Below are positions 2,060 to 17,125 of a DNA stretch of 64,000 nucleotides, one piece after another. Numbering within the stretch: position 1 is the stretch's first letter; the number at the start of each line of letters is the position of its first letter. The notes below the pieces were generated by a model. That model was given only the letters and a program-made list of their open reading frames with translations. It was not told where the DNA came from and did not search any database. The DNA comes from Marinobacterium sp. LSUCC0821 (GTDB lineage Bacteria > Pseudomonadota > Gammaproteobacteria > Pseudomonadales > Balneatricaceae): NCBI RefSeq assembly GCF_012848475.1, contig NZ_CP051666.1:581501-645500 (forward strand), written 5' to 3'. A program made the position numbers and the translations under genes.

Positions 2060-2488
2060 TTAGGCGTCGGGATCTAAGCTCAATATCTTGTTTAAAAGTT
2101 GATCGAGCTTCTGCATATCCTTAGAGCTCAATTTCTTGGTTAGCTGCTGATATCGCTCATCAACTAACGGAGCGACCTCATCAAACATCGCCTCTGCTTT
2201 TGGGGTTAGAGAGATGAGAACTACGCGCTGGTCTTCTGAAGAGCGGCGGCGTTTAATCAAATCCTGTTGCTCTAGGCGCGTTAGAATGCCAGTCAAACTA
2301 GGGCTCAAAAGTGAGCATCGATTGGCTAGCTCTTTGGACTCAGACTCTGGGTACTGCTTGAGTGCACGAATTACTCGCCACTGCTGCTCAGTAAGAGAGA
2401 CCTCCTGCAACACAGGACGGAAGAAACTCATGGTTACTTCGCGTGCCTTAAGCAGTTTTAGAGGTATCGAATCATCAAAATCACGCAT
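2060..2488 (-). CDS. hpaR: MarR-family repressor of the homoprotocatechuate operon
   Basis: 142-residue winged-helix protein. The segments SFFRPVLQEVSLTEQQWRV and LLSPSLTGILTRLEQQDLI (recognition helix region), followed by the RRRSSEDQR wing, closely match enterobacterial HpaR. HpaR represses the meta-cleavage genes and is released by pathway aromatics such as 4-hydroxyphenylacetate. Here it is co-directional with and embedded in the operon it should control, between hpaE and hpaD, rather than at its head. The likely operator is the inverted repeat in the hpaH-hpaF gap. Confidence 0.85.
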   Translation of the reverse strand: MRDFDDSIPLKLLKAREVTMSFFRPVLQEVSLTEQQWRVIRALKQYPESESKELANRCSLLSPSLTGILTRLEQQDLIKRRRSSEDQRVVLISLTPKAEAMFDEVAPLVDERYQQLTKKLSSKDMQKLDQLLNKILSLDPDA

Positions 2489-2544
2489 TTTAGTATTCGC
2501 TTAAATTGAGTGAATGCGCTGGCGGTTAACCAGCGCATATCAGC

Positions 2545-4077
2545 TTATTTACCGAGTGTTGGAACCTTGTGAGTACCATGTGCGACACACACGTTCTTAG
2601 TTTCCATGTAGAAGTCGAAGCTCCAGTCGCCGCCATCACGGCCGATACCAGACTGCTTGATACCACCGAATGGAGAAGGCAGGTTACGGTTGTTCTCAGA
2701 GTTAACCCAAAGCATACCCGCTTCAACTTTACGAGCCATACGCATTGCACGGCCAGTGTTTTCAGTCCAGATGTAACCTGATAGGCCATACTCTGTATCG
2801 TTCGCGATAGCGATCGCTTCCTCTTCAGTTTCAAACTGGATAGCAGTTAGAACAGGTCCGAAAATCTCTTCACGCGCGATACGCATGCTGTTGTCAGCGC
2901 CGGTGAATAGGGTTGGTTTAACGTAGTTACCCTGTAGAGAAATACCGTTGTTAGCTTGATCAACACGTGCACCACCAACAGCGATTTTAGCGCCATCTTC
3001 AGTCGCTAGATCCATGTAGCTTAGTACTTTCGCACAGTGGCCAGTGTGAACAAGTGGGCCCACTTCTGTTTGTGGATCCAGTGGGTGGCCTACGCGAAGG
3101 TTCTTAACGCGAGCTTCTAGGGCTTCGATGAACTTCGGTGCGATACCTTTCTGGATGAGAAGGCGGCTAGATGAAGTACAACGCTGGCCGTTCAAGCTGT
3201 AGATCATGAATACAACTGCATCTAGTGCACGTTCAAAGTCTGCATCATCAAATACAATAACTGGGTTTTTACCACCTAGCTCGAAGTGCATACGTTTTAG
3301 CGTATCTGCACCCTGACGCATAATGTGTGTACCAGTCGCTGATTCACCAACAAGAGCGACAGCCTTGATAGCTGGGTGCTCAGTTAGACGCTTACCAGCA
3401 GTCTCACCGAAACCGTTAACCATGTTCCAAACGCCTTTTGGAAGAACTTCATCTGCAATTTCAGCAAGGATGTAAGCGCTTAGCGGTGTTAGTTCAGCTG
3501 GTTTGTGTACCACGGTACAGCCTGCGGCTAGGGCAGGGGCGATCTTCCAGGTAGATAGCATGAAAGGGGTGTTCCATGGCGTGATGATGCCAACAGGACC
3601 AATCGCGTTGCGGATTGTGAAGTTGGTGTGCTCGTCCTGGTGAAGTGCCAGGCCGTTCTGCGCTTCTGGTGCTTTGTCGGCGAAGAAGCGGAAGTTAGCT
3701 GCGCCGCGAACAGCTGCCTGTTTCATGAAACGAATCGCCTGACCACAGTCCATAGACTCAACTAGTGCGATCTCGTCTGCACGCTCTACAAGTTTGTCTG
3801 CAAACTTATTAAGAATCTTTTTACGCTCAGCGCCTGGAGTGTTTGACCACTCCTGGAATGCATCTTCTGCTGCCTGACAAGCAGCATCTACATCTGCCAC
3901 AGTACCGGCAACAACCTTACCTAGTGATGAGTTATCAGTTGGTGTGATGTTGTCGTATAGTTCGCCACAAGAACCCTGAGTGAATTCACCATTGATGTAG
4001 TGGCCTACAGGTGCATCAGCAAAACGTTTTAGGTAGTCGGTAGCGCGTGCTTGGTTTGTTTGTAGAGTATCGCTCAT
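2545..4077 (-). CDS. hpaE: 5-carboxymethyl-2-hydroxymuconate semialdehyde dehydrogenase
   Basis: NAD-dependent aldehyde dehydrogenase superfamily enzyme that oxidises the ring-fission semialdehyde to 5-carboxymethyl-2-hydroxymuconate. Visible features are the TPWNTPF oxyanion Asn (N169), catalytic base E266 in FELGGKNP and nucleophile C300 in NGQRCTSS. The C-terminal FGGIKQSGIGRDGG motif is typical of the HpaE/BetB group. The start chosen is the ATG at 4077 (MSDTLQTNQ...), because AAAGGAG lies 9 nt upstream; a longer frame begins at 4098 but has no ribosome site. Length is 510 residues. It follows hpaG2 with a 25-nt gap. Confidence 0.92.
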   Translation of the reverse strand: MSDTLQTNQARATDYLKRFADAPVGHYINGEFTQGSCGELYDNITPTDNSSLGKVVAGTVADVDAACQAAEDAFQEWSNTPGAERKKILNKFADKLVERADEIALVESMDCGQAIRFMKQAAVRGAANFRFFADKAPEAQNGLALHQDEHTNFTIRNAIGPVGIITPWNTPFMLSTWKIAPALAAGCTVVHKPAELTPLSAYILAEIADEVLPKGVWNMVNGFGETAGKRLTEHPAIKAVALVGESATGTHIMRQGADTLKRMHFELGGKNPVIVFDDADFERALDAVVFMIYSLNGQRCTSSSRLLIQKGIAPKFIEALEARVKNLRVGHPLDPQTEVGPLVHTGHCAKVLSYMDLATEDGAKIAVGGARVDQANNGISLQGNYVKPTLFTGADNSMRIAREEIFGPVLTAIQFETEEEAIAIANDTEYGLSGYIWTENTGRAMRMARKVEAGMLWVNSENNRNLPSPFGGIKQSGIGRDGGDWSFDFYMETKNVCVAHGTHKVPTLGK

Positions 4078-4102
4078 TTTTAAAACTCCTTTGGGCAAGT
4101 AA

Positions 4103-4885
4103 TTAGTACTTGTCGCCGTAATATTCTTGTTCGCTAACCATGCGGGTCTCTAGCGCACAAATGTTCTCAATTTCACATACGATCGTGTCGCCTGGCTGAC
4201 AGTCGACGATACCGTGTGGTGTACCTGTACAGATCATGTCACCTGGGTTTAGGGTCATCACTTTACTTAGGTACTCGATAACGAATGGCACATTAAAGAT
4301 CATATCTTTGGTGCTGCCCTCTTGAGTCATCTTGCCGTTGACGTGAGTCGTTAGGCGAAGCGCATTTGCATCAGCAATGTCCGCTGTATCAACTATCCAA
4401 GGCCCCATAGGCAGTAAAGAGTCGCGGCTCTTGACGCGTAGGTTAGGGCGGTAGTAGTTCTCTAGGTAGTCACGGATAGCAAAGTCGTTACATACGGTGT
4501 AACCCGCTACATAATCAAGAGCATCTTCCGCTTTGATGTTTTTACCTGACTTACCAATAATTGCGACTAGTTCACACTCGTAGTGTTGGTAATCGATGTT
4601 GTCTGGGCGGTAGCTCACCTGCTTGTGACCGGTTAGGCAGTTAGCGTGCTTAACAAAGATCAGTGGCTCTTTAGGTGGTTCAAATGCCAGTTCTGTAGCG
4701 TGGTCTGCGTAGTTAATACCAAGCGCAAAGATAGTGCCTGGCTCTTTAACCGGTGGTAGCCAAGTAATTGCGTCAGAATCTAGTGCTACATTGATCTGCT
4801 CACCTTCATTTGTGGTGATCTGGTCGTTAGCGTCGATGTTGATATCTAGCTCACGGCCTTCTAGCAAAATACGTGCGCGTCTCAT
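4103..4885 (-). CDS. hpaG2: HpaG C-terminal-type subunit: 2-hydroxyhepta-2,4-diene-1,7-dioate isomerase/decarboxylase
   Basis: Fumarylacetoacetate-hydrolase-fold protein corresponding to the second half of the fused enterobacterial HpaG. FALGINYADHATEL, HYECELVAIIGK, GYTVCNDFAIRDYLENYYRPNLRVKSRD and NPGDMICTGTPHGI are all diagnostic. The acidic metal ligands lie in YECELV. With HpaG1 it should decarboxylate 5-oxo-pent-3-ene-1,2,5-tricarboxylate and isomerise the product. The start is the ATG at 4885, which has GGGAGG 8 nt upstream and is one base past the hpaG1 TAA; a GTG at 4894 is less likely. The tight spacing suggests translational coupling. Confidence 0.9.
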   Translation of the reverse strand: MRRARILLEGRELDINIDANDQITTNEGEQINVALDSDAITWLPPVKEPGTIFALGINYADHATELAFEPPKEPLIFVKHANCLTGHKQVSYRPDNIDYQHYECELVAIIGKSGKNIKAEDALDYVAGYTVCNDFAIRDYLENYYRPNLRVKSRDSLLPMGPWIVDTADIADANALRLTTHVNGKMTQEGSTKDMIFNVPFVIEYLSKVMTLNPGDMICTGTPHGIVDCQPGDTIVCEIENICALETRMVSEQEYYGDKY

Positions 4886-4886
4886 G

Positions 4887-5552
4887 TTAGGCACCTCCCA
4901 AAGTGTTGTTTAGGGTGCCTACACCCTCAATTGAAATAGCAACTTTGTCGCCTTTAGCTACGGCAACACGGTCACCGTAGAAGCCGACTGCAATCACTTC
5001 ACCTTCCTGAAGGGTCATGATGTAAGAGAGTGTGTGAATAAGGGTCGCAACACTGCGCTCCATCTGAGTAAGAGGGAAACTAGATTTCACATTGCCATTT
5101 ACGGCTACATCAACAGTAAGTGAATCTGGAGAAAGGCCAACTGGTGAAACGACTGCTGGGCCTACAGGTGCTGAGTTATCTAGACACTTACCTTTGATAT
5201 CAGGACGGAAGTAGGTTTGCTCCGGAAGAGAGTATTCTGCTACGACTGTGTAACCTTTTACGTAGTTAAGAGCGTCAGCTTCTGAAACGCGGCAAGTCTC
5301 TTTACCGATTACTACGCCTAAACTGCCACCCACGGCCATTTCTGCTACATCAACGCCGTCGAAATCTTTTGCCCAATCTACTACTGCACCGTCAGTGCTC
5401 CAAGTGTTACGTGGCTTGTAGTAAAGCACAGGCTGAGTTGGTGGCTTAACGTAAGGTTTTTCGTTGAACGTATCGCTCATCTTCTTAAGCTGTTCGCTGT
5501 CGTTTAAGGCAACGCAGATCAGCTTACTGTGAACCAGTGTATTCGGGTTCAT
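4887..5552 (-). CDS. hpaG1: HpaG N-terminal-type subunit (FAH-fold isomerase/decarboxylase)
   Basis: A 221-residue FAH-fold protein equivalent to the first half of fused HpaG: LICVALNDSEQL, VLYYKPRNTW, GGSLGVVIGK, GYTVVAEYSLPEQTYFRPDIKGKCLDNSAPVGP. In Enterobacteria the two halves form one bifunctional chain; here they are separate adjacent genes, as in many other Proteobacteria. The start ATG has AAAAGGAG upstream, so it is a genuine cistron and not half of a frameshifted fusion. It lies 12 nt after hpaI. Confidence 0.87.
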   Translation of the reverse strand: MNPNTLVHSKLICVALNDSEQLKKMSDTFNEKPYVKPPTQPVLYYKPRNTWSTDGAVVDWAKDFDGVDVAEMAVGGSLGVVIGKETCRVSEADALNYVKGYTVVAEYSLPEQTYFRPDIKGKCLDNSAPVGPAVVSPVGLSPDSLTVDVAVNGNVKSSFPLTQMERSVATLIHTLSYIMTLQEGEVIAVGFYGDRVAVAKGDKVAISIEGVGTLNNTLGGA

Positions 5553-5564
5553 CCTAATCTCCTT

Positions 5565-6371
5565 TTAGTAACTAGCTTGGGGCTTGGTGCTGACAGGTTC
5601 AGCGCCGCCCTTGAATTTCTGTGCAAGTTTGCGAGTCTCGTTGGCAAGAATCATAGAGTCGACACCCACACCTACAAATGATGCGCCCGCTTCGATGTAC
5701 TCTTGTGCCATGCTTGGGTCGAGGCAGAGTAAGCCACCCCATTTGCCAGCCGCTTTTATCTTACCTAGACCCTGCTTGATCGTTTCAACTACAACAGGGT
5801 TGCCTGCATCACCGATATAACCCATAGATGCTGATAGGTCAGAAGGGCCGATGAATACACCGTCTACACCATCTACAGCTAGGATTTCATCAAGATTTTC
5901 GATCGCTGTTGTCGTCTCTGCCTGAACAATTAAGCAGATCTCAGCGTTAGCTTTTTTAAGGTAGCCAGGGATCTGGTTCCAACGAGCAGCACGAGCTAGG
6001 GATGTCCCTAGACCGCGTACACCCTCAGGTGGATAACGAACGGCACGAACCATCTCTTTTGCCTGTTCAGCAGTGTCGATCATTGGCACGAGTAAAGTTT
6101 GCGCACCAATATCGATTAGCTGCTTAATAAGCGCAGTGTCACCAATAACTGGGCGAACGATAGGGGCAACATCATATGGGGCGATAGCCTGAAGGTGTGC
6201 CATGATCGTGCGCAAATCAAAAGGTGCATGCTCGCTATCGATCAATAGCCAATCAAAACCTGCACACGCGAGCATCTCTGCAACGCTGTTATCAGGTATG
6301 CCACACCACAAGCCGAACTGGGTTTCGCCAGTTGCTAAGCCTGCTTTAAATTGGTTTTTTGGAAGTTCCAT
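5565..6371 (-). CDS. hpaI: 4-hydroxy-2-oxoheptane-1,7-dioate aldolase (class II)
   Basis: HpcH/HpaI-family metal-dependent aldolase that splits 4-hydroxy-2-oxoheptanedioate into pyruvate and succinate semialdehyde. At 268 residues it is near the usual 260-267. Diagnostic stretches are [33 protein letters not shown] with the catalytic His in [37 protein letters not shown] with the metal-binding Glu, and [17 protein letters not shown] with the metal-binding Asp. It lies 10 nt after hpaH and 12 nt before hpaG1 in the operon. The product succinate semialdehyde is presumably taken on by GabD at 7.8 kb. Confidence 0.92.
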
Positions 6372-6381
6372 TACATCAACC

Positions 6382-7185
6382 TTATTCGAAGCTTAGACCG
6401 ATGCCACCTAGTGGACCGAAGTCTGCATGGATGGTGTCACCAGCTTTTACTGGAACAGGGCGGGTGAATGAGCCAGCCAAGATAACCTGGCCTGGTTCAA
6501 GGCCAAGACCATGTGGCGCAAAGCGTTTACACACCCAGCTGATCCCTTTTGCAGGGTGGCCAAGTACGCCGCCAGCTAGGCCTGTCTCTTCAATCTTGCC
6601 GTTTAGGTAGAGCATGGCGCCTGCCCAACGAAGATCCATCTCTGTTGGTTTGATTGGGCGGCCACCCATGATGATGCCGGCATTTGCTGCGTTATCAGAG
6701 ATAGTGTCGTATACCTTGCGGGTATAGCCGGTCGCTGGGTCTGTACGCATGCAGCGAGCTGCAATCAGTTCTAGTGACGGAATCACATAGTCAGTTGCGT
6801 TGTATACGTCAGTGATTGATACGTTTTCGCCGAACAGTGGCTTTTTAAGTACAAACGCCAATTCCACTTCAATACGAGGATCTAGGAAGTCAGATGCCTT
6901 AAGCGTATCGCCATCTTCAAACAACATGTCATCTAGTAACACGCCGTAATCTGGTTCGTCGATATTTACAGCCATCTGCATTGCACGAGAGGTAAGACCT
7001 ACCTTGTAACCAATCACTTTGCGGCCAGATGCAAGCTTTTGATCGACCCAGGTTTTCTGGATGGCGTATGCATCGCTCATATCCATCTCAGGGTAATCCA
7101 GGGTAAGTGCTGGAATCTGTTTGCGTTCAACTTCAGCTTTGTAAAGTCGGTTTGCTGCTTCGATTTGCTGCTCTTTGGTTAGCAC
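6382..7185 (-). CDS. hpaH: 2-oxo-hept-4-ene-1,7-dioate hydratase
   Basis: Hydratase of the FAH/MhpD-like fold that adds water to 2-oxohept-4-ene-1,7-dioate, feeding HpaI. Matching regions include [53 protein letters not shown] (acidic Mg ligands), [16 protein letters not shown] and [15 protein letters not shown]. The start chosen is GTG 7185 ([15 protein letters not shown]), preceded by AAGGAG; upstream in-frame codons to 7215 have no ribosome site and no counterpart in the family. It is the first gene of the leftward hpa operon, so its promoter must lie in the 176-nt gap to hpaF. Confidence 0.9.
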
Positions 7186-7250
7186 GATAAGGCTCCTTAA
7201 AAATATCTGTATCACTCTAAAGTGAAGTGGTTTTAGTTTGCATAAAGTTT

Positions 7251-7286
7251 GTTAACATGTAAACTAATATTTGTTCATATATTAAC
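7251..7286. promoter_or_regulatory. Candidate HpaR operator in the divergent hpaH/hpaF gap
   Basis: The gap contains an inverted repeat: GTTAACATGTAAAC (7251-7264) and GTTCATATATTAAC (7273-7286), 11 of 14 positions paired across an 8-nt spacer. The surrounding sequence is markedly AT-rich. Its position between the two divergent hpa transcripts, and the presence of a MarR-family repressor gene in the cluster, make it the best operator candidate. Assignment to HpaR is inference. Confidence 0.45.
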
Positions 7287-7361
7287 TTTTTTGTTGTTAG
7301 GGCTTTACTGGCTTAAATCGATCCGTGACAATCCAGTTAGTACTTAGCATAGGAATCTGAA

Positions 7362-7745
7362 ATGCCACATTTTGTCGTAGATTACTCAGCAAACTTGCAT
7401 GACCGTTTGGACTTTCAAACACTCTTTAAAGAACTGCATACCTACGTAGTATCTACGGGCGCATTTCCGATTGGTGGCGCGCGCAGCAGAGCAATACGTT
7501 GTGATGACTACTATGTGGCAGATGGCCGAGAAGAGTTTGCGTATATCAACCTCACGTTAAAGATAGGTGCAGGACGCCCGTTTGAGCTGCGTGAAGAGGT
7601 AGCTAAGAAGGTATTTGAAATATTCACAGATTGGATGAAACCGATCACCGACAACACCTATGTGATGATCTCTTTTGAAATGTCTGAACTGGAGCCAGTT
7701 CTCAAGTTCAACATGAACAATATTCATCCACTATTTAAAGATTAA
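7362..7745 (+). CDS. hpaF: 5-carboxymethyl-2-hydroxymuconate delta-isomerase
   Basis: Small (127-residue) tautomerase-superfamily enzyme that isomerises 5-carboxymethyl-2-hydroxymuconate to 5-oxopent-3-ene-1,2,5-tricarboxylate. After Met removal the catalytic N-terminal proline is P2 (MPHFVVDYS). FPIGGARSRA, LTLKIGAGRPFELRE and the C-terminal MNNIHPLFKD follow the HpaF pattern. It is transcribed divergently from the other hpa genes and is followed 30 nt later by gabD, so these two form a second small operon of the same pathway. Confidence 0.92.
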   Translation: MPHFVVDYSANLHDRLDFQTLFKELHTYVVSTGAFPIGGARSRAIRCDDYYVADGREEFAYINLTLKIGAGRPFELREEVAKKVFEIFTDWMKPITDNTYVMISFEMSELEPVLKFNMNNIHPLFKD

Positions 7746-7775
7746 ACAGACACACTATTCAGGGAAATGATCACA

Positions 7776-9245
7776 ATGTCTCTAAAGCTTACAGATCAAT
7801 CGTTACTTAAAAATCTCGCGTTTGTTAATGGCGAGTGGATTGCTTCACACTCTGGTAAAACCTTTCCTGTAACTAACCCTGCAACGGGTGAGTTGCTTGC
7901 CGAAGTACCTGACATGGATGAGGTTGATACGCACCGTGCAATTGATGCGGCTGATGCTGCATGGGATGCATGGAAAGCGGTGCCGTGTAAGCAGAAATCG
8001 AATCTTCTTCGTAAATGGTTCGACCTTGTTATGGCAAATCAGGAAGACCTTGCTCGCCTGATGACAGCAGAGCAGGGTAAACCGTTGGCTGAAGCACGTG
8101 GTGAAGTCGCTTACGGCGCTAGCTACATCGAGTGGTTTGCTGAAGAGGCTAAGCGCGTATACGGAGATACTATTCCTGCAGCGACAGGTGATAAGCGTCT
8201 AGTTGTTATCAAGCAGCCAGTTGGTGTTGTAGGTGCTATCACGCCGTGGAACTTCCCGAACGCTATGATCGCGCGCAAAATTGCGCCAGCCCTAGCTGCG
8301 GGTTGTCCTGTTGTTGCGAAACCAGCTGAAGATACTCCGCTATCATCACTTGCACTTGCAGAGTTGGCAGTGCGTGCCGGGATTCCGGCGGGTCTTATCA
8401 ATATCGTGACAAGTTCACGCGCTAATGCGGCAGCAGTGGGTGGTGCGCTCACGGGTTCTGATAAAGTTCGTAAGATCTCTTTCACAGGTTCAACCCAAGT
8501 CGGCAAGATCTTAATGAAGCAGGCTGCCGATACCGTTAAGAAAGTGAGCATGGAACTGGGTGGTAACGCTCCGTTTGTAGTCTTTGATGATGCAGATTTG
8601 GATGCAGCAATCGAAGGTGTGGTTGCATCTAAATACCGCAATACAGGACAGACCTGTGTTTGTGCTAACCGAATCATTGTTCAGTCAGGTGTCTACGAAG
8701 AGTTTCTTCAGAAGCTTGCCGCTCGTGTAGCTGGCTTCAAAGTGGGTAACGGCCTAGAGGTTGATGATGCGGTTCAGGGGCCACTCATCAACGCTGCGGC
8801 AGTGGAGAAGGTAGAGCGTCATGTTCAGGATGCTAAAGAGAAGGGCGCGCGTGTCATTCTTGGTGGTAAAGCACACGCCTTGGGCGGCACCTTCTATGAA
8901 CCAACTATTCTTGCTGATGTGACAACTGAAATGTGTGTTACCTACGAAGAGACCTTTGGTCCAGTAGCACCTATCTACAAGTTCGAAACAGAAGAGGAAG
9001 CGGTTGCGCTAGCAAACGATACAGAGTTTGGACTGGCTGCTTACTTCTACAGCCGCGATATTGGTCGTGTATGGCGTGTTGCTGAAGCGCTGGATGTAGG
9101 TATTGTTGGTATCAACGAAGGCATCATCTCTTCTGAGATGGCACCGTTCGGTGGTGTTAAGCAGAGCGGCCAGGGGCGTGAAGGCTCTAAATACGGTCTG
9201 GATGACTACCTAGAGATTAAATACCTCTGTATGGGTGGGATTTAA
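7776..9245 (+). CDS. gabD: Succinate-semialdehyde dehydrogenase [NAD(P)+]
   Basis: Aldehyde dehydrogenase of the GabD type. N160-region TPWNFPNAM, E260 in SMELGGNAP and C294/C296 in GQTCVCANR are visible; the second Cys is the redox-switch partner common in SSADHs. PFGGVKQSGQGREGSKYG closes the C-terminal part. It oxidises succinate semialdehyde, an HpaI product, to succinate. The start chosen is the ATG at 7776, because AGGGA (7761-7765) is 10 nt away, against 1 nt for the ATG at 7767. Position directly after hpaF argues for a role in this pathway rather than in GABA catabolism. Confidence 0.9.
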   Translation: MSLKLTDQSLLKNLAFVNGEWIASHSGKTFPVTNPATGELLAEVPDMDEVDTHRAIDAADAAWDAWKAVPCKQKSNLLRKWFDLVMANQEDLARLMTAEQGKPLAEARGEVAYGASYIEWFAEEAKRVYGDTIPAATGDKRLVVIKQPVGVVGAITPWNFPNAMIARKIAPALAAGCPVVAKPAEDTPLSSLALAELAVRAGIPAGLINIVTSSRANAAAVGGALTGSDKVRKISFTGSTQVGKILMKQAADTVKKVSMELGGNAPFVVFDDADLDAAIEGVVASKYRNTGQTCVCANRIIVQSGVYEEFLQKLAARVAGFKVGNGLEVDDAVQGPLINAAAVEKVERHVQDAKEKGARVILGGKAHALGGTFYEPTILADVTTEMCVTYEETFGPVAPIYKFETEEEAVALANDTEFGLAAYFYSRDIGRVWRVAEALDVGIVGINEGIISSEMAPFGGVKQSGQGREGSKYGLDDYLEIKYLCMGGI

Positions 9246-9302: not shown

Positions 9303-10568
9303 TTAAGCGCAAGGGACTGCTTGGACCCTCTGCTGAACTGGGCGTTCATCGACTGGCAAATGGATGATCGCTGAGAGTGCGCCTACACCGACGCCTACCC
9401 ACCAAACAAGATCGTAGCTACCGTAAAGGTCATACATCTCGCCACCTAACCATACACCGACAAATCCGCCTAATTGGTGTGAGAAGAATACGATGCCGTA
9501 GAGTGTGCCCATGTAACGTAGGCCATAGATCTGCGCGATAAGACCTGAGGTGAGGGGTACGGTTGCTAACCAAAGTCCACCCATCAGTACTGAGAAGATT
9601 AAAACTGATTCAGGTGTGATGGGTGACATGATAAACGCTGCAGCAACCACCGTTCTTAGCGCATAGATCGTTGCCAACAGATATTTGCGTGAGTGTCTCG
9701 CGCCCAACCAACCAGCAAGGATAGTGCCGCCTATGTTGGCAAATCCTACAAAGGCGATTGCTGCTGCTCCCAACGCGGGGGTGCTAGAGATACCTAAAGA
9801 TTCGACAAAGCTTCCTGGTGTGATGGTGCTACACACCTCAGTAATGAAAGCAGGGAAGTGGGCTGTGATAAAGGCCAGCTGATAGCCACAAGAGAAGAAG
9901 CCGATAAAGATAAAGATAAAGTTCTTATCTTTGATCGCGCTTTTAACCACAGAGCCAAGGCTCTCCGATTTATTTGTTACCGGTGCTGGTTTATCTGCTT
10001 TGATAAATGGCAGAAATGCGATGCTGAATAGAATGATCGCTGCAAGAATCATGAAGACATCCTGCCATGGGAAGTGGTTTAGCAGTGCCTGAGTTAATGG
10101 TGGCCCTACTACCTGGCCAGCAGAGCCTGCTGCAGTCGCTATGCCTAGTGCCATTGAACGATGCTTCTCTGCTGTTGCGCGGCCAACAATAGCTAGAATA
10201 ACGCCAAAGCCGGTACCGGCAATACCGAACCCTACAATGATCTCTAGCAGTTGGTGTTGGCCTGGTGTGATTGCGAACGAAGAGATCGCAAGGCCAGCAG
10301 CGTAGCAGATAGCACCCAATACAATGGCGCGTCGATCCCCAAACTTCTCTGCAAGGGCACTAAATAACGGTTGGCCAAAGCCCCATGCGAGGTTTTGAAT
10401 TGCAATGGCTAAAGAGAAGTCGGCACGTAGCCAGTTGAAATCATTTGCAATCGGAATCTGAAATAGGCCAAAGGATGCGCGAATGGAAAATCCTAAAAGC
10501 AGAATGATGCTGCCTGCAATGAGGACTGGGGTAAAAAGCCGAGAGTCTAGGGTGTTGGAGGTGTTCAT
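9303..10568 (-). CDS. MFS transporter (12-TM, MCT/OFA-like)
   Basis: 421-residue polytopic membrane protein with about 12 hydrophobic segments, a central cytoplasmic loop after residue 200 (KADKPAPVTNKSES) and an MFS loop 2-3 motif, GDRRAIVLG. The IRASFGLFQIPIANDFNWLRADFS opening resembles monocarboxylate/oxalate-formate type carriers. The substrate cannot be read from sequence. Lying between the hpa genes and the LysR gene, it may import an aromatic or other carboxylate for the pathway, but it has its own orientation and no direct operon link to hpa. Confidence 0.8.
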   Translation of the reverse strand: MNTSNTLDSRLFTPVLIAGSIILLLGFSIRASFGLFQIPIANDFNWLRADFSLAIAIQNLAWGFGQPLFSALAEKFGDRRAIVLGAICYAAGLAISSFAITPGQHQLLEIIVGFGIAGTGFGVILAIVGRATAEKHRSMALGIATAAGSAGQVVGPPLTQALLNHFPWQDVFMILAAIILFSIAFLPFIKADKPAPVTNKSESLGSVVKSAIKDKNFIFIFIGFFSCGYQLAFITAHFPAFITEVCSTITPGSFVESLGISSTPALGAAAIAFVGFANIGGTILAGWLGARHSRKYLLATIYALRTVVAAAFIMSPITPESVLIFSVLMGGLWLATVPLTSGLIAQIYGLRYMGTLYGIVFFSHQLGGFVGVWLGGEMYDLYGSYDLVWWVGVGVGALSAIIHLPVDERPVQQRVQAVPCA

Positions 10569-10630: not shown

Positions 10631-11545
10631 TTAGCTTTCAACAGATGCAACGACCTCTTTAAAAATCTCCTGTAGTTGTAGATGCATAGGGTGATCGGCC
10701 ATCTCTTCTCGTGCCCACAGGAAGATATCTCGCGCTTGGCTAAGGCTGCGGTTAAGCTCCAAGGGTTTGAGTTGGTAATGCTGTTTCACAAGTTGCATTG
10801 GAAGGTGGGGGAGGACAGATAGATGCAGTCCTGCTTTTAGCCCCTCCAATAGAAGATACCCTTCGTTCCTATACACAACTTGGGTACGTATCTTAGAAAC
10901 ACCCTCCTCAGCGAGTAGGTCCATCACTTCACGTTCAAAGGGGGAGCCGTGACCAAGGCTGAGCCAACGTGCTGTGGCTAGGTCGTTAACCTCTAATGGT
11001 CTGTTGAGGTTAGCCAGAGGGTGTGTCGTACTGCAGTAGATGCCGATTGAGTCATCAGCCACCTTAGTACGAACACAGCCAGGAATCTGACGATTGGTTG
11101 CGGATGGAGCTAGGGCGAAGTCGAGCTCGTTATCAATTAACTCATCAATCACTTTAGTCGGCCTTGAGACCTCTATAGATAGTGAGATATTTGGATTAGC
11201 AGCTAGGAGTCTATTTTGAACTTCGGGCATTACAGTTGCAGCCAGAAGTGGACCCACACCAATACGCAGCTCTTTATCCAAACCTATACGATGTCTAGAT
11301 GCGATGGAGGTAGCTGCCTCGACGTTGCGCTGTATGGCGCGACCTTCACGCGCCAGTGCTTCACCAACAGGTGTGCCTTTCACGCCATAGCGGCTGCGGC
11401 TAAACAGTGTTGTGCCGGCCTGCATCTCAAGTGTAGACATAACACGTGTGAGAGTTGGCTGAGTAACTGCTAGGTGTTTAGCTGCCTCTGTGAGCGAGCC
11501 TTTTTCTAGCACGACTGAAAGGTAGAAGAGATGTTTAGGATCCAT
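10631..11545 (-). CDS. LysR-family transcriptional regulator
   Basis: 304-residue LTTR. The N-terminal winged helix is clear: HLFYLSVVLEKGSLTEAAKHLAVTQPTLTRVMSTLEMQAGTTLFSR, followed by the two-lobed effector domain (LRIGVGPLLAATVMP...). The gene is divergent from the TAXI-TRAP/sulfatase operon, with the start codons about 100 nt apart, the usual arrangement for an LTTR and its target. The effector is unknown; the target operon suggests an organosulfate or a derived acid. The MFS gene 62 nt downstream is co-directional and may be co-transcribed. Confidence 0.88.
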   Translation of the reverse strand: MDPKHLFYLSVVLEKGSLTEAAKHLAVTQPTLTRVMSTLEMQAGTTLFSRSRYGVKGTPVGEALAREGRAIQRNVEAATSIASRHRIGLDKELRIGVGPLLAATVMPEVQNRLLAANPNISLSIEVSRPTKVIDELIDNELDFALAPSATNRQIPGCVRTKVADDSIGIYCSTTHPLANLNRPLEVNDLATARWLSLGHGSPFEREVMDLLAEEGVSKIRTQVVYRNEGYLLLEGLKAGLHLSVLPHLPMQLVKQHYQLKPLELNRSLSQARDIFLWAREEMADHPMHLQLQEIFKEVVASVES

Positions 11546-11585
11546 ACATTTTTTTTAATTTGGAAGATTAAAATGTAATTTTACA
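11545..11585. promoter_or_regulatory. Candidate LysR operator region
   Basis: TACATTTT (11545-11552) and AAAATGTA (11570-11577) form a perfect 8-bp inverted repeat with a 17-nt spacer; it overlaps the LysR start codon. A second short dyad, TGTAATTTTACA (11574-11585), fits the T-N11-A form of LTTR sites. The location between the divergent LysR gene and its likely target operon supports regulation of both. Which dyad is bound is not known. Confidence 0.4.
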
Positions 11586-11647: not shown

Positions 11648-12625
11648 ATGTTCAAAAAGGCACTTGGTAAAACAATTCTAGCTGCAAGCATCGGTCTTTC
11701 AGCTATGTCAGCACAGGCTGTAGATATCAGCATGGAAGCAGCTACAGCACAGTCTGTTGTAGGTCTAATGCCTCAGACCATGGCATCATACCTTTCTAAG
11801 GCTGATGTCAATGTACAGTTGGCGATGGGTCAGACTCTGACTAAATCACTTCTAAAAATTGCTAACGGATCTCTAGACTCTTCTGTGATTCCGCCAGGCG
11901 CATACCTTGCACTTAAAGCAGGTAAGGGACCTTACGCGAAGATGGGTGCTGAGAAGGGCGCTGAGATGGCAAGCTCTGTTCGTGCTCTTTACGGTTTCCC
12001 AGGCTCAACTTACCATGCGATCACTTGGGCTGATAACGGCATCAATGAGTGGAAAGACGCTGCCGGTAAGCGTGTTTACATTGGTCCACCAGCAGGTGCA
12101 GCTAACGCACAGATCACATCTCTTGCGGCTGCAGGTGGCCTAGAGAAAGATACCTATGAAGGTATTAAAGCGCCTTGGGGTGCGGCAGCGCAGGCTTTCC
12201 AGGATGGTCAGTTTGACGTTTACGTGGGTTCTTTCCCAGTAGGTTCTCAGGTTGTTGCTGAGCTAAGCCTTAAGCGTCCAATCCGTATTCTAGGAATCCC
12301 AGAAGGTACTCTGCCTAAGAAAGGTCTAGGTATGGAGCCTGCTAATATTCCTGCTGGCACCTACCCAGATCAGGCGAATACTTCTGATTCAAGCTCATTC
12401 CTGACTCTTATGTTCATGGGTGTAAATGCATCGATGTCTGATGACCTTGCTTACACTATGACCAAGGTTTACATGGAGACACGTGAGCAGATGGGTAAAG
12501 ACAACCGTCTTCTTAACCACCTATCTAAGTACAGCCCATTCGTAGGTGTAACAGCACCACTTCATCCAGGTGCTATCAAGTACTTCGAAGAGAATGGCTT
12601 CACTGTTCCAGCAGATCTTAAGTAA
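11648..12625 (+). CDS. TAXI-family TRAP transporter solute-binding protein
   Basis: Periplasmic binding protein of 325 residues with a Sec signal peptide (MFKKALGKTILAASIGLSAMSAQA, cleavage near A24). The mature part has the TAXI-type pattern: ISMEAATAQSVVGLMPQTMA, NGSLDSSVIPPGAY, KRVYIGPPAGAANAQ and DVYVGSFPVGSQVV. The start is the ATG at 11648, with CGGAG 8 nt upstream; a longer frame from 11609 would mask the signal peptide. It heads an operon with the fused permease, a sulfatase and a TauE/SafE protein, so the ligand may be a sulfated compound. Few TAXI ligands are known, so this is inference. Confidence 0.88.
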   Translation: MFKKALGKTILAASIGLSAMSAQAVDISMEAATAQSVVGLMPQTMASYLSKADVNVQLAMGQTLTKSLLKIANGSLDSSVIPPGAYLALKAGKGPYAKMGAEKGAEMASSVRALYGFPGSTYHAITWADNGINEWKDAAGKRVYIGPPAGAANAQITSLAAAGGLEKDTYEGIKAPWGAAAQAFQDGQFDVYVGSFPVGSQVVAELSLKRPIRILGIPEGTLPKKGLGMEPANIPAGTYPDQANTSDSSSFLTLMFMGVNASMSDDLAYTMTKVYMETREQMGKDNRLLNHLSKYSPFVGVTAPLHPGAIKYFEENGFTVPADLK

Positions 12626-12645
12626 CTTCCTATAAGTTATTAATC

Positions 12646-12670
12646 GCAGGGCTGGCTAGGCTGGCCCTGC
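12646..12670 (+). other. Intercistronic hairpin between TRAP binding protein and permease
   Basis: GCAGGGC (12646-12652) and GCCCTGC (12664-12670) form a 7-bp GC stem, with no T-run after it. Such stems after binding-protein genes commonly protect the upstream mRNA or partly terminate transcription, giving more binding protein than permease. Confidence 0.55.
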
Positions 12671-12692
12671 ATACTCAAATCGAGTTCAAATT

Positions 12693-14630
12693 ATGAATAC
12701 TTCTCTCGCAGCTACTATGCAGAAGTGGATCGCTTTTGCTCTGGGTATGGTTGTAGCCTTCTATGGCTTGGCTAACGTCCTACCAGCGATTGGTGACTTC
12801 CGTCTTGGACCCTTCCCAATGCACTGGTTCCGCCCAACCTTCTTTGCACTATGTGTCGCATTGGTATTGGTTGATATGTCTAATTCAAGTAAGAAAACAC
12901 CTTGGTGGGTGCTTCTGATTGGATTGGCTGCTACTGCAGGCCTGTTCTGGGGTAGCTACGAGTTCTATTTCGTCGCGCGTGATATCGATGACGCGATGTT
13001 CCTGTTTGGTACCTACGAGATGTGGGTTGCCGTTTGTGCTTCAGCAGGTGCGCTATTTTTCTGTTGGCGCATCTGGGGTATGCCGGTTGCAATACTAGGT
13101 GTCATCGGTGTTGCTTACATGTGGACTGGTCACCTGTGGCCTGGACCGCTTCGCACTGTAAACAGCGGTGTTGAAGAGATGTTGGCGCAGAACCTTCTCT
13201 TCAGTCTTGATACGGGCATGATGGGTTCTACCTTCTCGATTGTTATCACTACTGTATTCCCATTCATCATTCTTGGGGCCGTGCTTGAGGGTGTAGGTGC
13301 TGGAGAGTCGATGATTCGTATCGCGTTTTACTGGATGCGTCGTACCGCAGGTGGCCCAGCATATGCAGCTGTTATGTCGTCTGGTCTATTCGGTACTGTA
13401 TCAGGCAGTGCGGTTGCCAACGTTGTAGGCACCGGTGTCGTAACTATTCCAATGATTATGCGTCGCGGCTTTTCGAAAAGCTTTGCTGGTGCAGTAGAGG
13501 CTTCTGCTTCGTCGGGTGGCCAGATCATGCCACCTATTATGGGTGCAGCTGCACTTGTGATGGCAGATTTTGCTGGGGTTGGCTACCTGACCATCATTAT
13601 CGCAGTGCTTGTGCCTGCGATCGCTTACTACATCAGCGTTTGTACGATGATCTACTTTGAGACTAAGCGTCTTGGTATTAAGCCTAATGAAGAAGATATC
13701 GCTAACACGCCAGTACCTAATAAGCAGGACTACCTAAACCTAGTTATGATCTTTGGACCACTGGCGGTCATTGTAGTACTGCTGATTCAAGGTATGTCTC
13801 CGTCAGGTGCTTCGATTACAGCGCTGGCACTATTGTTCCCTCTAAGCTTTATCAACCCAGAGGTTCGTAAACAGCCTGCTCGTTTGATTAAGTGTCTATC
13901 GGAAGGTGGTTCTACCTTTGCAGGTCTTCTAATGGCGATTGCAGCGGTATCGATTGTTATCTCGGCATTGTCAGCTACGGGGGTGCCGGTGAAATTTGGT
14001 GTCCTTCTCAACTCTGTTGTTACTGACTCACTAATGATTTCACTGCTTGTTGCTGCAGTAGGTTGTGTGATCTTGGGTATGGGTATGCCGACGCTACCGG
14101 CTTATGTCACTGTGGCGACTATCGCGATTCCAGCAATGCAGATGCTTGGTCTAGATACGCTTACAGCACATATGTTCGTATTTATGATTGCGGTAGGTTC
14201 TGCAATTACACCGCCAGTTGCGATTGCTGCTTATGCTGCTGCAACCATATCTGGTGGCGGGCCTATAAAGACATCTGTTGACGCGTCACGTATCGGTATC
14301 ATGATCTTCTTGATCCCATTCATGTTCGCTTACAACCCACTGATGCTGAGTGTTGACCAGGAGAGCGTTCAGTTCGCTTGGCTGCCATGGGCATGGTTGA
14401 TGCTGAAATTGTTGATCAGTATTCCTGTACTTTCGAGTGCGTTGATTGGTTTTGATAACTCGAAACTGAATATCTTTGAAATTGCGTTACGTATTGCATG
14501 TGTAGTGTTGATGTTTGTACCAGAGGGTTACTGGGATCTGGTAGGCCTTGGTGGTGCGCTGCTTATTATCCTTGCACACCGTCGCATGCTTGGTTTTAAC
14601 AGTCTTATTAAAGAGGGTGGTGCACTATGA
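12693..14630 (+). CDS. TRAP transporter permease, DctQ-DctM fusion (4TM/12TM)
   Basis: 645-residue inner-membrane protein. The first about 150 residues contain four hydrophobic segments (small-subunit-like), followed by the large DctM-type domain with VFPFIILGAVLEGVGAGESMI, GGPAYAAVMSSGLFGTVSGSAVANVVGTG, SSGGQIMPPIMGAAALVMA and LGMGMPTLPAYV. The fused layout is typical of permeases that pair with TAXI binding proteins. It should be a sodium-driven secondary transporter. It lies 67 nt after the binding-protein gene and overlaps the sulfatase start by 4 nt (ATGA). Confidence 0.92.
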   Translation: MNTSLAATMQKWIAFALGMVVAFYGLANVLPAIGDFRLGPFPMHWFRPTFFALCVALVLVDMSNSSKKTPWWVLLIGLAATAGLFWGSYEFYFVARDIDDAMFLFGTYEMWVAVCASAGALFFCWRIWGMPVAILGVIGVAYMWTGHLWPGPLRTVNSGVEEMLAQNLLFSLDTGMMGSTFSIVITTVFPFIILGAVLEGVGAGESMIRIAFYWMRRTAGGPAYAAVMSSGLFGTVSGSAVANVVGTGVVTIPMIMRRGFSKSFAGAVEASASSGGQIMPPIMGAAALVMADFAGVGYLTIIIAVLVPAIAYYISVCTMIYFETKRLGIKPNEEDIANTPVPNKQDYLNLVMIFGPLAVIVVLLIQGMSPSGASITALALLFPLSFINPEVRKQPARLIKCLSEGGSTFAGLLMAIAAVSIVISALSATGVPVKFGVLLNSVVTDSLMISLLVAAVGCVILGMGMPTLPAYVTVATIAIPAMQMLGLDTLTAHMFVFMIAVGSAITPPVAIAAYAAATISGGGPIKTSVDASRIGIMIFLIPFMFAYNPLMLSVDQESVQFAWLPWAWLMLKLLISIPVLSSALIGFDNSKLNIFEIALRIACVVLMFVPEGYWDLVGLGGALLIILAHRRMLGFNSLIKEGGAL

Positions 14631-15943
14631 CCAATATTATCTACATCGTTGCCGATGATCTTGGATACGCAGATCTAGGCTGTTACGGCGGTCGTGAAGC
14701 ACAGTTTGGCCAGATATCTCCAAATATCGATCGCTTAGCTGCAGAAGGGATGATGTTTACAGAGGGTTACTCAAACTCTCCGGTATGTTCACCAACGCGT
14801 TTTGCCCTGATGACCATGGCGTACCAGTACCGCTTGCGTGGTGCCCTTGAAGAGCCTATTAATAGCCGTTCAAAGGGTGACCCTAAGCTTGGCTTACCTC
14901 CTGAGATTCCAACGCTGCCGTCACAACTAAAGAAAGCAGGCTACTACACAGGTCTTATTGGTAAGTGGCACCTAGGTTACCCGCCTCACTTCGGTCCGCG
15001 CGCTTCAGGTTATGAAGAGTTTTACGGCATCATGGCTGGCGGAGTGGATTACTTTAGCCATGTCAGCGGTAAGGGTGATCATGACCTCTTCATCAACGAA
15101 GATGAGCACCATGAGATTGGTTATCTAACGGACCTTTTATCTGAGCGTGCAGTCGATTTTGTACATCGTCGTGCGGAAGGTGCTAAGTCAGGTAAACCAT
15201 TCTTCCTCAGCCTTCACTACACTGCACCACACTGGCCGTGGGAGACGCGTGATGATGAGGAGATCTCTAAGAACATCACAAATCTATTCCACCTTGATGG
15301 CGGTAATATCCATACCTACCAGCGTATGATTCATCACATGGACGAGGGTATCGGTAACATTATGGCTGCGCTTGAAGAGCATGGTTTAACTGAAGATACC
15401 TTGATCGTATTCACCAGTGATAATGGTGGAGAGCGCTTCTCCGATAACTGGCCATTAGTCGGTGGTAAGATGGACCTCACAGAAGGCGGTATTCGAGTGC
15501 CTTGGGTTGCGCGTTGGCCTAAAGCGATTAAAGCGGGTCAAAAATCAACACAGCACTGTATGACGATGGATTGGTCGTACACCATGCTGAAAGTTGGTGG
15601 TGGTGAAGCCGATCCAAGCTACGCAACAGATGGTGTTGACCTAACGCCTGTATTAACAGGTGAGGTTGAAGAGTTTAAACGTCCGCTATTCTGGCGTATG
15701 AACCACCGCAGCCAGCGCGCATATCGTATGGGTGAGTGGAAGTACCTCAAAGTTGATGAGCACGAATACCTATTCAACGTCGTGAATGATGCGCGTGAGC
15801 GCGCCAACCATGCGAAAAACGATCCAGATCGTTTAGCTGAAATGCGTCAGGCTTGGTTAGATTGGAATGACAGTATTCCACCTATACCAGATGATGCTAC
15901 AGTGAGCCTAGGCTATGGCCGGGCTGACATGCCGCAGCGCTAA
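14627..15943 (+). CDS. Cytoplasmic sulfatase, formylglycine type (arylsulfatase-like)
   Basis: 438-residue sulfatase-family enzyme. The maturation motif CSPTR (C54-R58) should supply formylglycine. Other active-site elements are D10-D11 (IVADDLG), K113 and H115 (GKWHLG), H202 (YTAPHWPW) and D265-N266 (TSDNGGE). There is no signal peptide, so it probably acts in the cytoplasm on an imported sulfate ester. It overlaps the TRAP permease by 4 nt and precedes a TauE/SafE gene by 18 nt, which ties import, desulfation and anion export together. No formylglycine-generating enzyme is encoded in the window. Substrate unknown; aryl sulfate is one option. Confidence 0.9.
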   Translation: MTNIIYIVADDLGYADLGCYGGREAQFGQISPNIDRLAAEGMMFTEGYSNSPVCSPTRFALMTMAYQYRLRGALEEPINSRSKGDPKLGLPPEIPTLPSQLKKAGYYTGLIGKWHLGYPPHFGPRASGYEEFYGIMAGGVDYFSHVSGKGDHDLFINEDEHHEIGYLTDLLSERAVDFVHRRAEGAKSGKPFFLSLHYTAPHWPWETRDDEEISKNITNLFHLDGGNIHTYQRMIHHMDEGIGNIMAALEEHGLTEDTLIVFTSDNGGERFSDNWPLVGGKMDLTEGGIRVPWVARWPKAIKAGQKSTQHCMTMDWSYTMLKVGGGEADPSYATDGVDLTPVLTGEVEEFKRPLFWRMNHRSQRAYRMGEWKYLKVDEHEYLFNVVNDARERANHAKNDPDRLAEMRQAWLDWNDSIPPIPDDATVSLGYGRADMPQR

Positions 15944-15961
15944 AAGTTAGCTGAGATTGGT

Positions 15962-16738
15962 ATGGAATTTTCATCGTTGTTGTCGATAGATATAGCCGGC
16001 GTTGTTGCCGGCTTTGTCTTCTCGATGCTGATATTTATGTCTGGTGTTGGGGCTGGGGTACTGGTTGTCCCGTCGCTCATCGTTCTTTTCGGAATGGACC
16101 CAACCCTTGCCGTTGCCACAGGTTCCTTTTACGCTTTTTTAGCTAAAATTCTTATGACAGCTGGTCATGCCAAGCAGGGTGGTGTTAACTGGGGAGTAGG
16201 TCGTAAGTTCCTCTATCTCTGTGTACCAATTACCATTGTTTGTGCACTTAGTCTGACATTAATTACAGACCCAGCAGTCAGAAAAGAGGTCGATTTCTAC
16301 CTCATGCTAGCCGTGCTTCTAGCTGGTATCTTATCAGTCGCTTCGATGTTCACTAAAGCGATTAGGGACTCTTTGAGTAAGTTGGGATTAACGACTCTTA
16401 GTGGTATCACAGGCTTACTCATGGGCTTTACTGGTGTCGGTGGCGGTGTACTTGTGGTGCCGGCATTGGCGTCTTCTGGTGGACTTTCCATTAAGTCAGC
16501 CGTTGCGACTTCAATACCTGTGGGGCTTATTCTCTCTTTGGCGGTCTCTTTAACCCTAGGTAGCCGTGGTTTTATGGACTACTCTATGGTGGCTTCTCTT
16601 ATGGTAGGTTGTTTATTGGCCATGCCGATCGCACTAAAGGTCTTTAAGCTGCTCTCTGAGAGTGCAATTAAAAATATCACCGTTATTTTTATCTCCTTAG
16701 CTCTACTAGGGCTTGTTAAAGAGTTAGTTATTCACTGA
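15962..16738 (+). CDS. TauE/SafE-family membrane protein (putative sulfite/organosulfur anion exporter)
   Basis: 258-residue protein with about eight hydrophobic segments and two repeated signatures, MSGVGAGVLVVPSLIVLFGMDPTLAVATGSFYAF and MGFTGVGGGVLVVPALASSGGLSIKSAVATSI, the internal duplication typical of TauE/SafE. Members are linked to export of sulfite, sulfoacetate or related anions, though many are uncharacterised. As the last gene of the TRAP-sulfatase operon it could remove sulfur oxyanion released in the cytosol. A second, unrelated copy occurs at 42.4 kb. Confidence 0.85.
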   Translation: MEFSSLLSIDIAGVVAGFVFSMLIFMSGVGAGVLVVPSLIVLFGMDPTLAVATGSFYAFLAKILMTAGHAKQGGVNWGVGRKFLYLCVPITIVCALSLTLITDPAVRKEVDFYLMLAVLLAGILSVASMFTKAIRDSLSKLGLTTLSGITGLLMGFTGVGGGVLVVPALASSGGLSIKSAVATSIPVGLILSLAVSLTLGSRGFMDYSMVASLMVGCLLAMPIALKVFKLLSESAIKNITVIFISLALLGLVKELVIH

Positions 16739-16817: not shown

Positions 16818-16838
16818 AAATGAGTATGATTCTCATTT
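16818..16838. promoter_or_regulatory. Fur box upstream of feoAB
   Basis: AAATGAGTATGATTCTCATT (plus one T) is an imperfect 21-bp dyad with only two mismatched pairs besides the centre, close to the classic Fur consensus of ATGATAAT-type hexamers. It lies about 33 nt before the feoA start, where a repressor would block the promoter. Iron repression of feoAB is the expected outcome. Confidence 0.8.
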
Positions 16839-16870
16839 AGAATCTGCTTTTACTCTTTGGTTAGATCTCC

Positions 16871-17125
16871 ATGTCCAACACTAGTACAGACAATCTTTGG
16901 ATGCTTAAGCGCGATGAGCTATGCCAGATTGTGGGCTTCGACTCGCAATTGGATAGTGCCATTAAAGCGCGTATAGATGAGTTGGGTTTTCGTACTGGGG
17001 CAAACATTCTCTGTACTCAAGCTCCTCGCTTGGGTGCGCCTAAGTTGTATCGCGTAGGTAATGCTGTCTACTCTTTAGAAAAGCCTGTCGCCTTAATGGT
17101 TCAGATTCAAAGGATTGAGTCGTAG
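16871..17125 (+). CDS. feoA: Ferrous iron transport protein A
   Basis: 84-residue SH3-like FeoA domain protein. DELCQIVGFDSQLDSAIKARIDELGFRTGANILCTQAPRLGAPKLYRVGNAVYSLEK matches the FeoA pattern (loss-of-density core LxELGF, then RVG...YSLRK-like strand). FeoA is a small cytosolic accessory of the FeoB iron(II) permease. It shares one base with the FeoB start, which implies translational coupling, and is preceded by a Fur box. Confidence 0.9.
   Translation: MSNTSTDNLWMLKRDELCQIVGFDSQLDSAIKARIDELGFRTGANILCTQAPRLGAPKLYRVGNAVYSLEKPVALMVQIQRIES

Follow-up and report, generated by a model that had tools for sequence, protein, structure and literature searches.

A candidate operon for organosulfate uptake and desulfation beside the homoprotocatechuate genes of Marinobacterium sp. 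LSUCC0821

What is the role of a sulfatase gene that lies between the genes of a TAXI-type TRAP transporter and a gene for a TauE/SafE family protein, next to an aromatic ring-cleavage pathway? This arrangement is found in a 64,000-nucleotide stretch of the genome of Marinobacterium sp. LSUCC0821 (assembly GCF_012848475.1, contig NZ_CP051666.1, positions 581,501 to 645,500), which is called the window here and by which positions are counted. An earlier note on this DNA had described the genes as a candidate operon with a divergent LysR gene, and its gene coordinates, overlap and spacing all match the open reading frames as placed and the curated family models (Table 1). The gene content and order, the conserved residues, the swapping of partner genes and the recurrent linkage to homoprotocatechuate (hpa) genes that were observed indicate a real, widespread and modular system, the functional steps of which, organosulfate uptake and desulfation, are predicted from sequence. 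The operon is probably an entry module for the catabolism of sulfated phenolic acids, most likely sulfates of the phenylacetate type.

The sulfatase is the constant part of the system. It matches PF00884 with 194.2 bits (cut-off 25) and carries the CSPTR motif at residues 54-58. Its start shares the letters ATGA with the permease stop, an overlap of 4 nt, and the TauE/SafE gene follows after a gap of 18 nt. Given the overlap with the permease stop and an N-terminus that reads MTNIIYIVADD, a signal peptide does not fit and the enzyme is read as cytoplasmic; both this and the Sec-type leader of the TAXI protein were judged by reading the sequence alone. The motif and the missing signal peptide had been correctly recognised in the earlier note. 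Relatives were obtained from a scan of bacterial and archaeal genomes, the best 80 of at least 593 being kept, and the counts below refer to these 80 loci, which by record titles belong to marine gammaproteobacteria (Marinobacterium, Marinomonas, Amphritea, Halomonas) and many Burkholderiales. Greedy calling of the longest open reading frames recovered the sulfatase cluster in no more than 50 loci; a composition-scored caller, and later direct tblastn, took its place. Seventy-nine sulfatase sequences were aligned, those of the window and of 78 of the 80 loci (L020 and L032 were lost in gene calling and recovered by tblastn), and early start codons gave some of them false N-terminal extensions. 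Relative to the window copy, identity is 70-90% where a TRAP permease is present (16 loci) and 69-75% in the other 62 aligned, a degree of conservation that suggests a narrow substrate without proving it. CSPTR is invariant in 79 of 79 copies, as are D10, D11, C54, R58, K113, H115, H202, D265, N266 and K281, which in the S1 family are motif, metal-site or sulfate-site residues. The same sulfate-site residues are present in an alignment to PDB entry 6bia. With the choline sulfatase model BetC (TIGR03417), the protein scores 110.9 bits, far under the cut-off of 433.45, and it is not classed as a choline sulfatase.

Around this enzyme the partners change. In the window, the gene of the TAXI protein (TIGR02122, 106.8 bits, cut-off 84.35) is adjacent to that of the fused permease (TIGR02123, 442.5 bits, cut-off 320.65), which places the pair among TAXI-TRAP transporters, and the TauE/SafE protein matches PF01925 with 99 bits (cut-off 32.6). 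Partner genes were counted across the 80 loci from tblastn matches, with limits of at least 50% within 3 kb for the TRAP permease, at least 26% within 4 kb for the Bug/TctC receptor, at least 40% within 7 kb for SulP, 5 kb for TauE/SafE, and at least 38% within 6 kb for LysR; family names were taken from Pfam and NCBIfam scans of representatives. These counts are lower bounds, since in 16 loci one flank is shorter than 4 kb. A TRAP permease (62-93% identical) adjoins the sulfatase in 16 loci and a Bug/TctC receptor is found in 57, both in none and neither in seven. Two of these seven (L050, L072) have a DctM-type permease in its place, and in the others (L018, L042, L047, L078, L080) no importer was found with the TRAP permease and Bug queries. 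Of the 64 loci lacking a TRAP permease, 51 have a same-strand Bug gene no more than 250 bp from the sulfatase; proximity alone is weak evidence, because Bug genes are very common in Burkholderiales. Regarding exporters, SulP is present in 21 loci and TauE/SafE, the rarer of the two, in 3, never together (a SulP-like gene near L004, of 24% identity, was not counted), while the regulators are LysR in 34 and MarR in 24, again never both.

In view of the conserved enzyme residues, the lack of a signal peptide and the exchange of importers and exporters around a constant sulfatase, the simplest reading is that an anionic organosulfate would be imported and cleaved in the cytosol, the sulfate being removed by whichever exporter is at hand. 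The replacement of TauE by SulP in other loci argues that TauE/SafE may export the anion. This is the route drawn in the earlier note, and the genomic evidence supports it. The invariance of ten residues and the presence of the TAXI-TRAP-sulfatase arrangement in other genera imply conservation beyond chance. The exact four-gene order with TauE occurs, among the loci compared, only in the window and in the congener G001 (locus L004), so that the recurrence for which the earlier note proposed a search extends across genera for TAXI-TRAP-sulfatase and stays within the genus for the full order. Of other genomes, G005 has a sulfatase-TauE pair at a contig end, and the congener G002 has the permease-sulfatase pair with no TauE match within 1.5 kb downstream. 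The inverted repeat TTTAA-N9-TTAAA upstream of the operon is also present in L004 (same genome as L179) and absent from L003, L005 and L006.

The TAXI protein was compared with the glutamate-binding VcGluP, the contact residues of which were taken from PMC11574862 (papers are cited here for excerpts of their text, and what is drawn from them holds for those excerpts) with the numbering shifted by 28, an offset deduced from the HTE and GD matches. None of the six alignable glutamate-contact positions is kept: H123, E125, G156 and D157 are replaced, and Y200 and M201 fall in a gap; the main determinants Y45 and Q93, plus S75, lie in the part that does not align. It is likely, on this comparison, that the protein is not a glutamate binder.

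Which organosulfate would be delivered is indicated by the genes nearby. Among the 116 genomes of the window's family, the sulfatase or part of it is present in 16, HpaD_Fe in 58 and both in ten. In five of these ten, HpaD_Fe lies within 15 kb of the sulfatase where about 0.1 would be expected (P = 2.4e-8, the 15-kb limit having been picked after the distances were seen, relatedness not being taken into account and different contigs counting as unlinked). The linked distances are 12.7 kb in G000, 7.1 in G013, 7.5 in G019, 7.3 and 8.6 in G045, and 6.4 in G046; G013 and G019 are congeners, as are G045 and G046, and the linked cases therefore span three genera. Furthermore, G045 holds both components of p-hydroxyphenylacetate 3-hydroxylase (NF045920, NF045919) next to hpaD and some 9-11 kb away from the sulfatase, and G046 a VanA-type gene about 12 kb from a sulfatase copy. 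In G089, hpaI-hpaH-hpaF-hpaE, an HpaR-like gene, a LigA-LigB dioxygenase pair and tctA-tctB-tctC stand beside a 60% identical sulfatase. In a betaproteobacterial metagenome-assembled genome (L017), MarR, Bug, sulfatase and SulP genes come before a run, on the opposite strand, of hpaI-aldolase-hpaH-hpaD (72%)-hpaE-hpaG homologues. Six plasmid relatives were also viewed: that of Polaromonas (58%) has a 3-hydroxyanthranilate dioxygenase gene about 4 kb away, that of Variovorax a phenylacetate-CoA ligase gene, and that of Novosphingobium maiA and monooxygenase genes; nothing telling lies near that of Methylobacterium, and one more is without annotation. From these neighbourhoods, aromatic catabolism appears to be the common theme and homoprotocatechuate the commonest single partner found. 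The earlier note had named, as the case that would speak against its sulfated phenolic substrate, homologous operons never near aromatic catabolism. No such pattern was seen; hpa genes adjoin the sulfatase in several lineages, which differ in their transporters, and the aromatic link is stronger than the note knew.

Several observations weigh against this reading. The idea of a genome-wide co-occurrence of hpa genes and sulfatase found no support, since HpaD_Fe is present in 10 of 16 genomes with the sulfatase and 48 of 100 without (p = 0.42); of the co-occurrence that the earlier note proposed to look for, the recurrent local linkage stands and the enrichment does not. In the flanks of the 80 loci, hpaD is found only four times, all among the 46 with full 10-kb flanks. 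The linked copy in G019 is a sulfatase remnant (residues 175-438) with its active-site half gone. In the close congener G001 the entire operon is present without HpaD_Fe, its TAXI gene being frame-broken by a one-base insertion relative to the window copy, which could be decay or an assembly error; in G004, also without HpaD_Fe, only the last 139 sulfatase residues are left, in mid-contig. The two would fit decay following loss of the pathway, in a tiny sample. Moreover, other copies lie beside VanA-type oxygenases (3/80), DOPA-dioxygenase-like LigB genes (3/80) or kynurenine genes (2/80), counts that, like that of DUF3237 below, come from queries drawn from the loci themselves and have no outside control, and the Comamonas plasmid relative lies near an SMP-30/gluconolactonase-type gene. 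The substrate may, judging by these genes, vary between lineages. Such variation brings in general organosulfate catabolism, in which the module would import sulfated carboxylates of various kinds, whether aromatic or otherwise, and the linkage to hpa genes would reflect one product of many. The differing aromatic neighbours, the spread of the sulfatase over marine and many Burkholderiales genomes and the absent genome-level enrichment agree with it, while the high sulfatase conservation, suggestive rather than conclusive, and the return of hpa linkage with different importers do not, and we regard it as possible but rather unlikely. Sulfur scavenging as the main role is opposed by the exporter genes.

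A further point against a phenolic substrate comes from solved proteins: the closest solved relatives are 6bia and the iota-carrageenan sulfatase 6b0j (E 5e-67 among the best PDB matches), and the top PDB matches belong to the S1_19 and S1_16 carrageenan sulfatases, aligned over nearly the whole length. The enzyme might accordingly be expected to take as its substrate a sugar acid or oligosaccharide fragment that bears sulfate, the hpa neighbourhood being incidental, and the class II aldolase and 2-dehydropantoate-2-reductase-like genes near some copies, with the SMP-30/gluconolactonase gene just named, point the same way. However, the enzyme is predicted to be cytoplasmic, the hpa linkage is above chance, and the families shown for the scanned neighbours include no glycoside hydrolase (one set partial, 25 of 50 families), so that very little credence is given to sugar sulfates. 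Catabolism of sulfated phenolic acids is kept as the probable function.

Other genes recur in these neighbourhoods. In L033 (11676-15511) and L073 (11308-15485), after the sulfatase come genes resembling those of tryptophan 2,3-dioxygenase and kynureninase, along with a Bug receptor gene, which suggests a sulfated tryptophan metabolite as the substrate in those bacteria. In the Hydrogenophaga loci L058 (9083-9898), L061 (11391-12206) and L076 (11391-12209), a LigB-family gene, 4,5-DOPA-extradiol-dioxygenase-like but under cut-off, comes directly after the sulfatase or SulP gene. A DUF3237 protein, which may belong to the same pathway, adjoins the sulfatase in 5 of 80 loci (L005, 11325-11780; L006, L007, L011, L013) and is also encoded beside hpaD in G019 (L175 11175-11636). 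A class II aldolase of the PRK07044 type occurs in sulfatase or hpa neighbourhoods in L171 (8897-10663), L175 (7716-9482) and L017 (13927-14688, inside the hpa run), accompanied in two of these three places by a 2-dehydropantoate-2-reductase-like gene. In G089 (L183 208-1361, 10232-14681), a UPF0261-like protein (PRK02399 models) is encoded with hpa, sulfatase, LigA-LigB and tctABC genes.

In the window itself, the operon is contiguous with hpa genes at 1011-7745, as the earlier note had described. The models for HpaD, E, G, H and I are all matched above cut-off, which identifies a homoprotocatechuate meta-cleavage pathway; the N-terminal type of HpaG (TIGR02305, 224.5 bits) falls just under its cut-off of 228.65, and the HpaF-like isomerase has 119.1 bits with PRK15031, under the cut-off of 215. 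A 4-hydroxyphenylacetate 3-hydroxylase was not found in the window genome with PF03241 and PF08028: no HpaB was obtained with PF03241 (one of 15 genomes searched had one), and the only PF08028 match is a 607-aa protein, the two-component oxygenase model NF045920 having 384 positions. Because hpaD to hpaI are present with no HpaB and only this match, homoprotocatechuate may arrive ready-made, already dihydroxylated, for example as its sulfate; it counts against this part of the reading that kinds of 4-hydroxyphenylacetate hydroxylase beyond these two families are possible.

How would the sulfatase be activated? The window genome is a single contig of 2.36 Mb, 99.25% complete, with one PF00884 gene, and no FGE (no PF03781 match) and no anSME (no TIGR03942 match at E 0.001) were found in it. 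Of the matured formylglycine supposed in the earlier note, the CSPTR motif is kept and a known maturase was not found in this genome. The maturase survey covered 37 sulfatase-holding genomes, many of them drafts, 15 of the family and 22 reached via named loci; G019 has only the remnant and the copy of G005 is cut by a contig end. A PF03781 match of some kind is present in 31 of the 37, and a first impression that maturases are common was dropped when all PF03781 matches listed were read in six frames for the two-cysteine FGE signature, which is found only in G044, G125 and G137. This signature is that of characterised FGEs, with L098 of G037, outside the 37, as positive control; a stricter first pattern missed G044 and G137, and the result depends on the pattern. 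The remaining PF03781 proteins we take, by length and core motif, for OvoA-, EgtB- or other non-FGE members. There is no PF03781 match at all in G000, G001, G005, G089, G128 and G135. An anSME above cut-off occurs in G116 only, weak TIGR03942 matches in 12 more (44 to 115 bits, cut-off 349) not being counted, and neither an FGE-type signature nor such an anSME was found in 33 of the 37.

Since neither maturase was detected in most of these genomes, the window genome with its sole sulfatase gene among them, we tentatively suggest that this clade is activated by a formylglycine system beyond FGE and anSME, or that its cysteine functions without modification. For E. coli, a third maturation system was already inferred in 2007 (Benjdia et al., cited in PMC6189696, PMC8326336 and PMC6315715), and the machinery of that species is still termed elusive in PMC6189696. 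The same source lists the identical CSPTR motif of the P. aeruginosa arylsulfatase as 95% converted in E. coli when no enzyme is co-expressed, and describes slow turnover by unmodified choline sulfatase, for which reasons both possibilities are kept. In the longer maturation motif CxPxRxxxLTGR (PMC11500405), the LTG part has a TM or SM ending in 78 of the 79 copies. That this loss tracks the absence of FGE was considered and dropped, because G089 reads TG yet has no PF03781 match; the plasmid relatives L105, L106 and L109 also read TG. The altered motif and the missing maturases in a single-contig genome would suit a protein that is not a working sulfatase here, its cysteine left unmodified, and that carries out another hydrolysis of the alkaline-phosphatase superfamily. 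Nevertheless, every sulfate-site residue checked is kept, SulP and TauE neighbours fit released sulfate, and the elusive conversion in E. coli and the slow unmodified enzyme described above (PMC6189696) leave a sulfatase workable, so that a loss of sulfatase function is highly doubtful.

The steps of sulfated phenolic acid catabolism, in which ligand, transport direction, enzyme activity and induction are all predicted, would be as follows. An organosulfate in the periplasm would be captured by the TAXI protein, imported via the fused TRAP permease and cleaved at its ester by the cytoplasmic sulfatase, the cysteine of which would presumably be oxidised to formylglycine by a route other than FGE or anSME. 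Sulfate, which would otherwise accumulate, would be expelled by TauE/SafE, and the freed catechol would pass through HpaD-E-F-G-H-I and succinate-semialdehyde dehydrogenase to pyruvate and succinate, LysR probably sensing the substrate. The substrate is most likely 3,4-dihydroxyphenylacetate O-sulfate here, and in relatives also 4-hydroxy- and hydroxymethoxyphenylacetate sulfates. In seaweeds, sulfates of hydroxy-, dihydroxy- and hydroxymethoxyphenylacetic acid are reported by mass-spectrometric annotation at confidence levels 2, 2 and 3, phenolic acid sulfates being higher in green algae (excerpts of PMC12432060). These would match the 4-hydroxyphenylacetate hydroxylase of G045, hpaD and the VanA-type gene of G046, and are plausible substrates.

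Table 1. Features of the window in and around the operon
Feature	Position	Strand	Evidence
HpaD, 3,4-dihydroxyphenylacetate 2,3-dioxygenase	1011..1934	-	TIGR02298, 453.5 bits (cut-off 315.95)
HpaR regulator	2060..2488	-	TIGR02337 above cut-off
HpaE dehydrogenase	2545..4098	-	TIGR02299 above cut-off
HpaG, two subunit genes (4103-4894 and 4887-5552)	4103..5552	-	TIGR02303 (C-terminal type) above cut-off
HpaI aldolase	5565..6371	-	TIGR02311 above cut-off
HpaH hydratase	6382..7215	-	TIGR02312 above cut-off
HpaF-like isomerase (5-carboxymethyl-2-hydroxymuconate delta-isomerase type)	7362..7745	+	PRK15031, E 1.5e-34
Succinate-semialdehyde dehydrogenase	7767..9245	+	TIGR01780 above cut-off
MFS transporter adjoining LysR, possibly a second uptake route	9303..10568	-	PF07690
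LysR-type regulator, divergent	10631..11545	-	PF00126 and PF03466 (HTH and substrate domains)
Inverted repeat TTTAA-N9-TTAAA, candidate LysR binding site	11554..11572		LysR/TAXI intergenic region
TAXI-type TRAP solute-binding protein, Sec-type leader	11648..12625	+	PF16868 NMT1_3; TIGR02122 TRAP_TAXI
Fused TRAP permease (QM)	12693..14630	+	TIGR02123 TRAP_fused
S1-type sulfatase, CSPTR, without signal peptide, predicted cytoplasmic	14627..15943	+	PF00884
TauE/SafE family protein, presumed anion exporter	15962..16738	+	PF01925

Directly downstream of the TauE gene lie genes for FeoA (16871-17125, PF04023) and FeoB (17125-18957, PF02421), and within the region 16818-18957 a sequence upstream of FeoA resembles a Fur box.

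If the proposed function is true, the operon gives a TAXI-TRAP transporter a concrete ligand class, sulfated phenolic acids, and shows bacterial recycling of sulfated algal phenolics. It isolates the question of sulfatase maturation without FGE and anSME in a small genome with a single sulfatase, and such genomes would be ideal for finding the missing third system. No description of such an operon was found in searches of the open-licence PMC literature, in line with the earlier note's view of an undescribed system, and the combination appears to be new as far as literature searches reach.

Among known systems, AtsRBC/AtsA of Pseudomonas takes up aryl sulfates by an ABC transporter under sulfur starvation and desulfates them inside the cell. 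AtsA is listed as an S1_4 sulfatase (PMC5066984). The likeness lies in bringing an aryl sulfate into the cell and desulfating it there; here, in contrast, uptake would be secondary, of TAXI-TRAP or Bug type, and the exporter genes and the linkage to ring cleavage point to carbon catabolism rather than sulfur scavenging. The acesulfame cluster on Shinella and Bosea plasmids likewise has, in Shinella, a formylglycine-type sulfatase gene beside LysR and TauE/SafE genes, but its 502-aa sulfatase is a different one that keeps CxPxRxxxLTGR, its partner is an amidase, its substrate a xenobiotic, its host has FGE genes, and no TRAP genes are named in the excerpt used (PMC11500405). The choline-O-sulfatase BetC is an S1 sulfatase that also acts on a small organosulfate, from a host with a putative FGE (PMC6189696); the window sulfatase differs from it in remaining under the TIGR03417 cut-off. 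The S1_19 iota-carrageenan sulfatase 6b0j and 6bia are the closest in solved sequence and share the sulfate-site residues, but they are marine polysaccharide enzymes, whereas the window sulfatase is predicted to be cytoplasmic and no polysaccharide genes are among the neighbours scanned and shown. In the TAXI-TRAP family, of which few ligands are known, VcGluP (glutamate) and the o-phthalate system of Azoarcus CIB also pair a TAXI protein with a TRAP permease (PMC11574862). The latter is a precedent for an aromatic acid, and, unlike VcGluP, the contacts of which are not kept at the alignable positions, the transporter described here is predicted to bind a sulfated phenolic acid.

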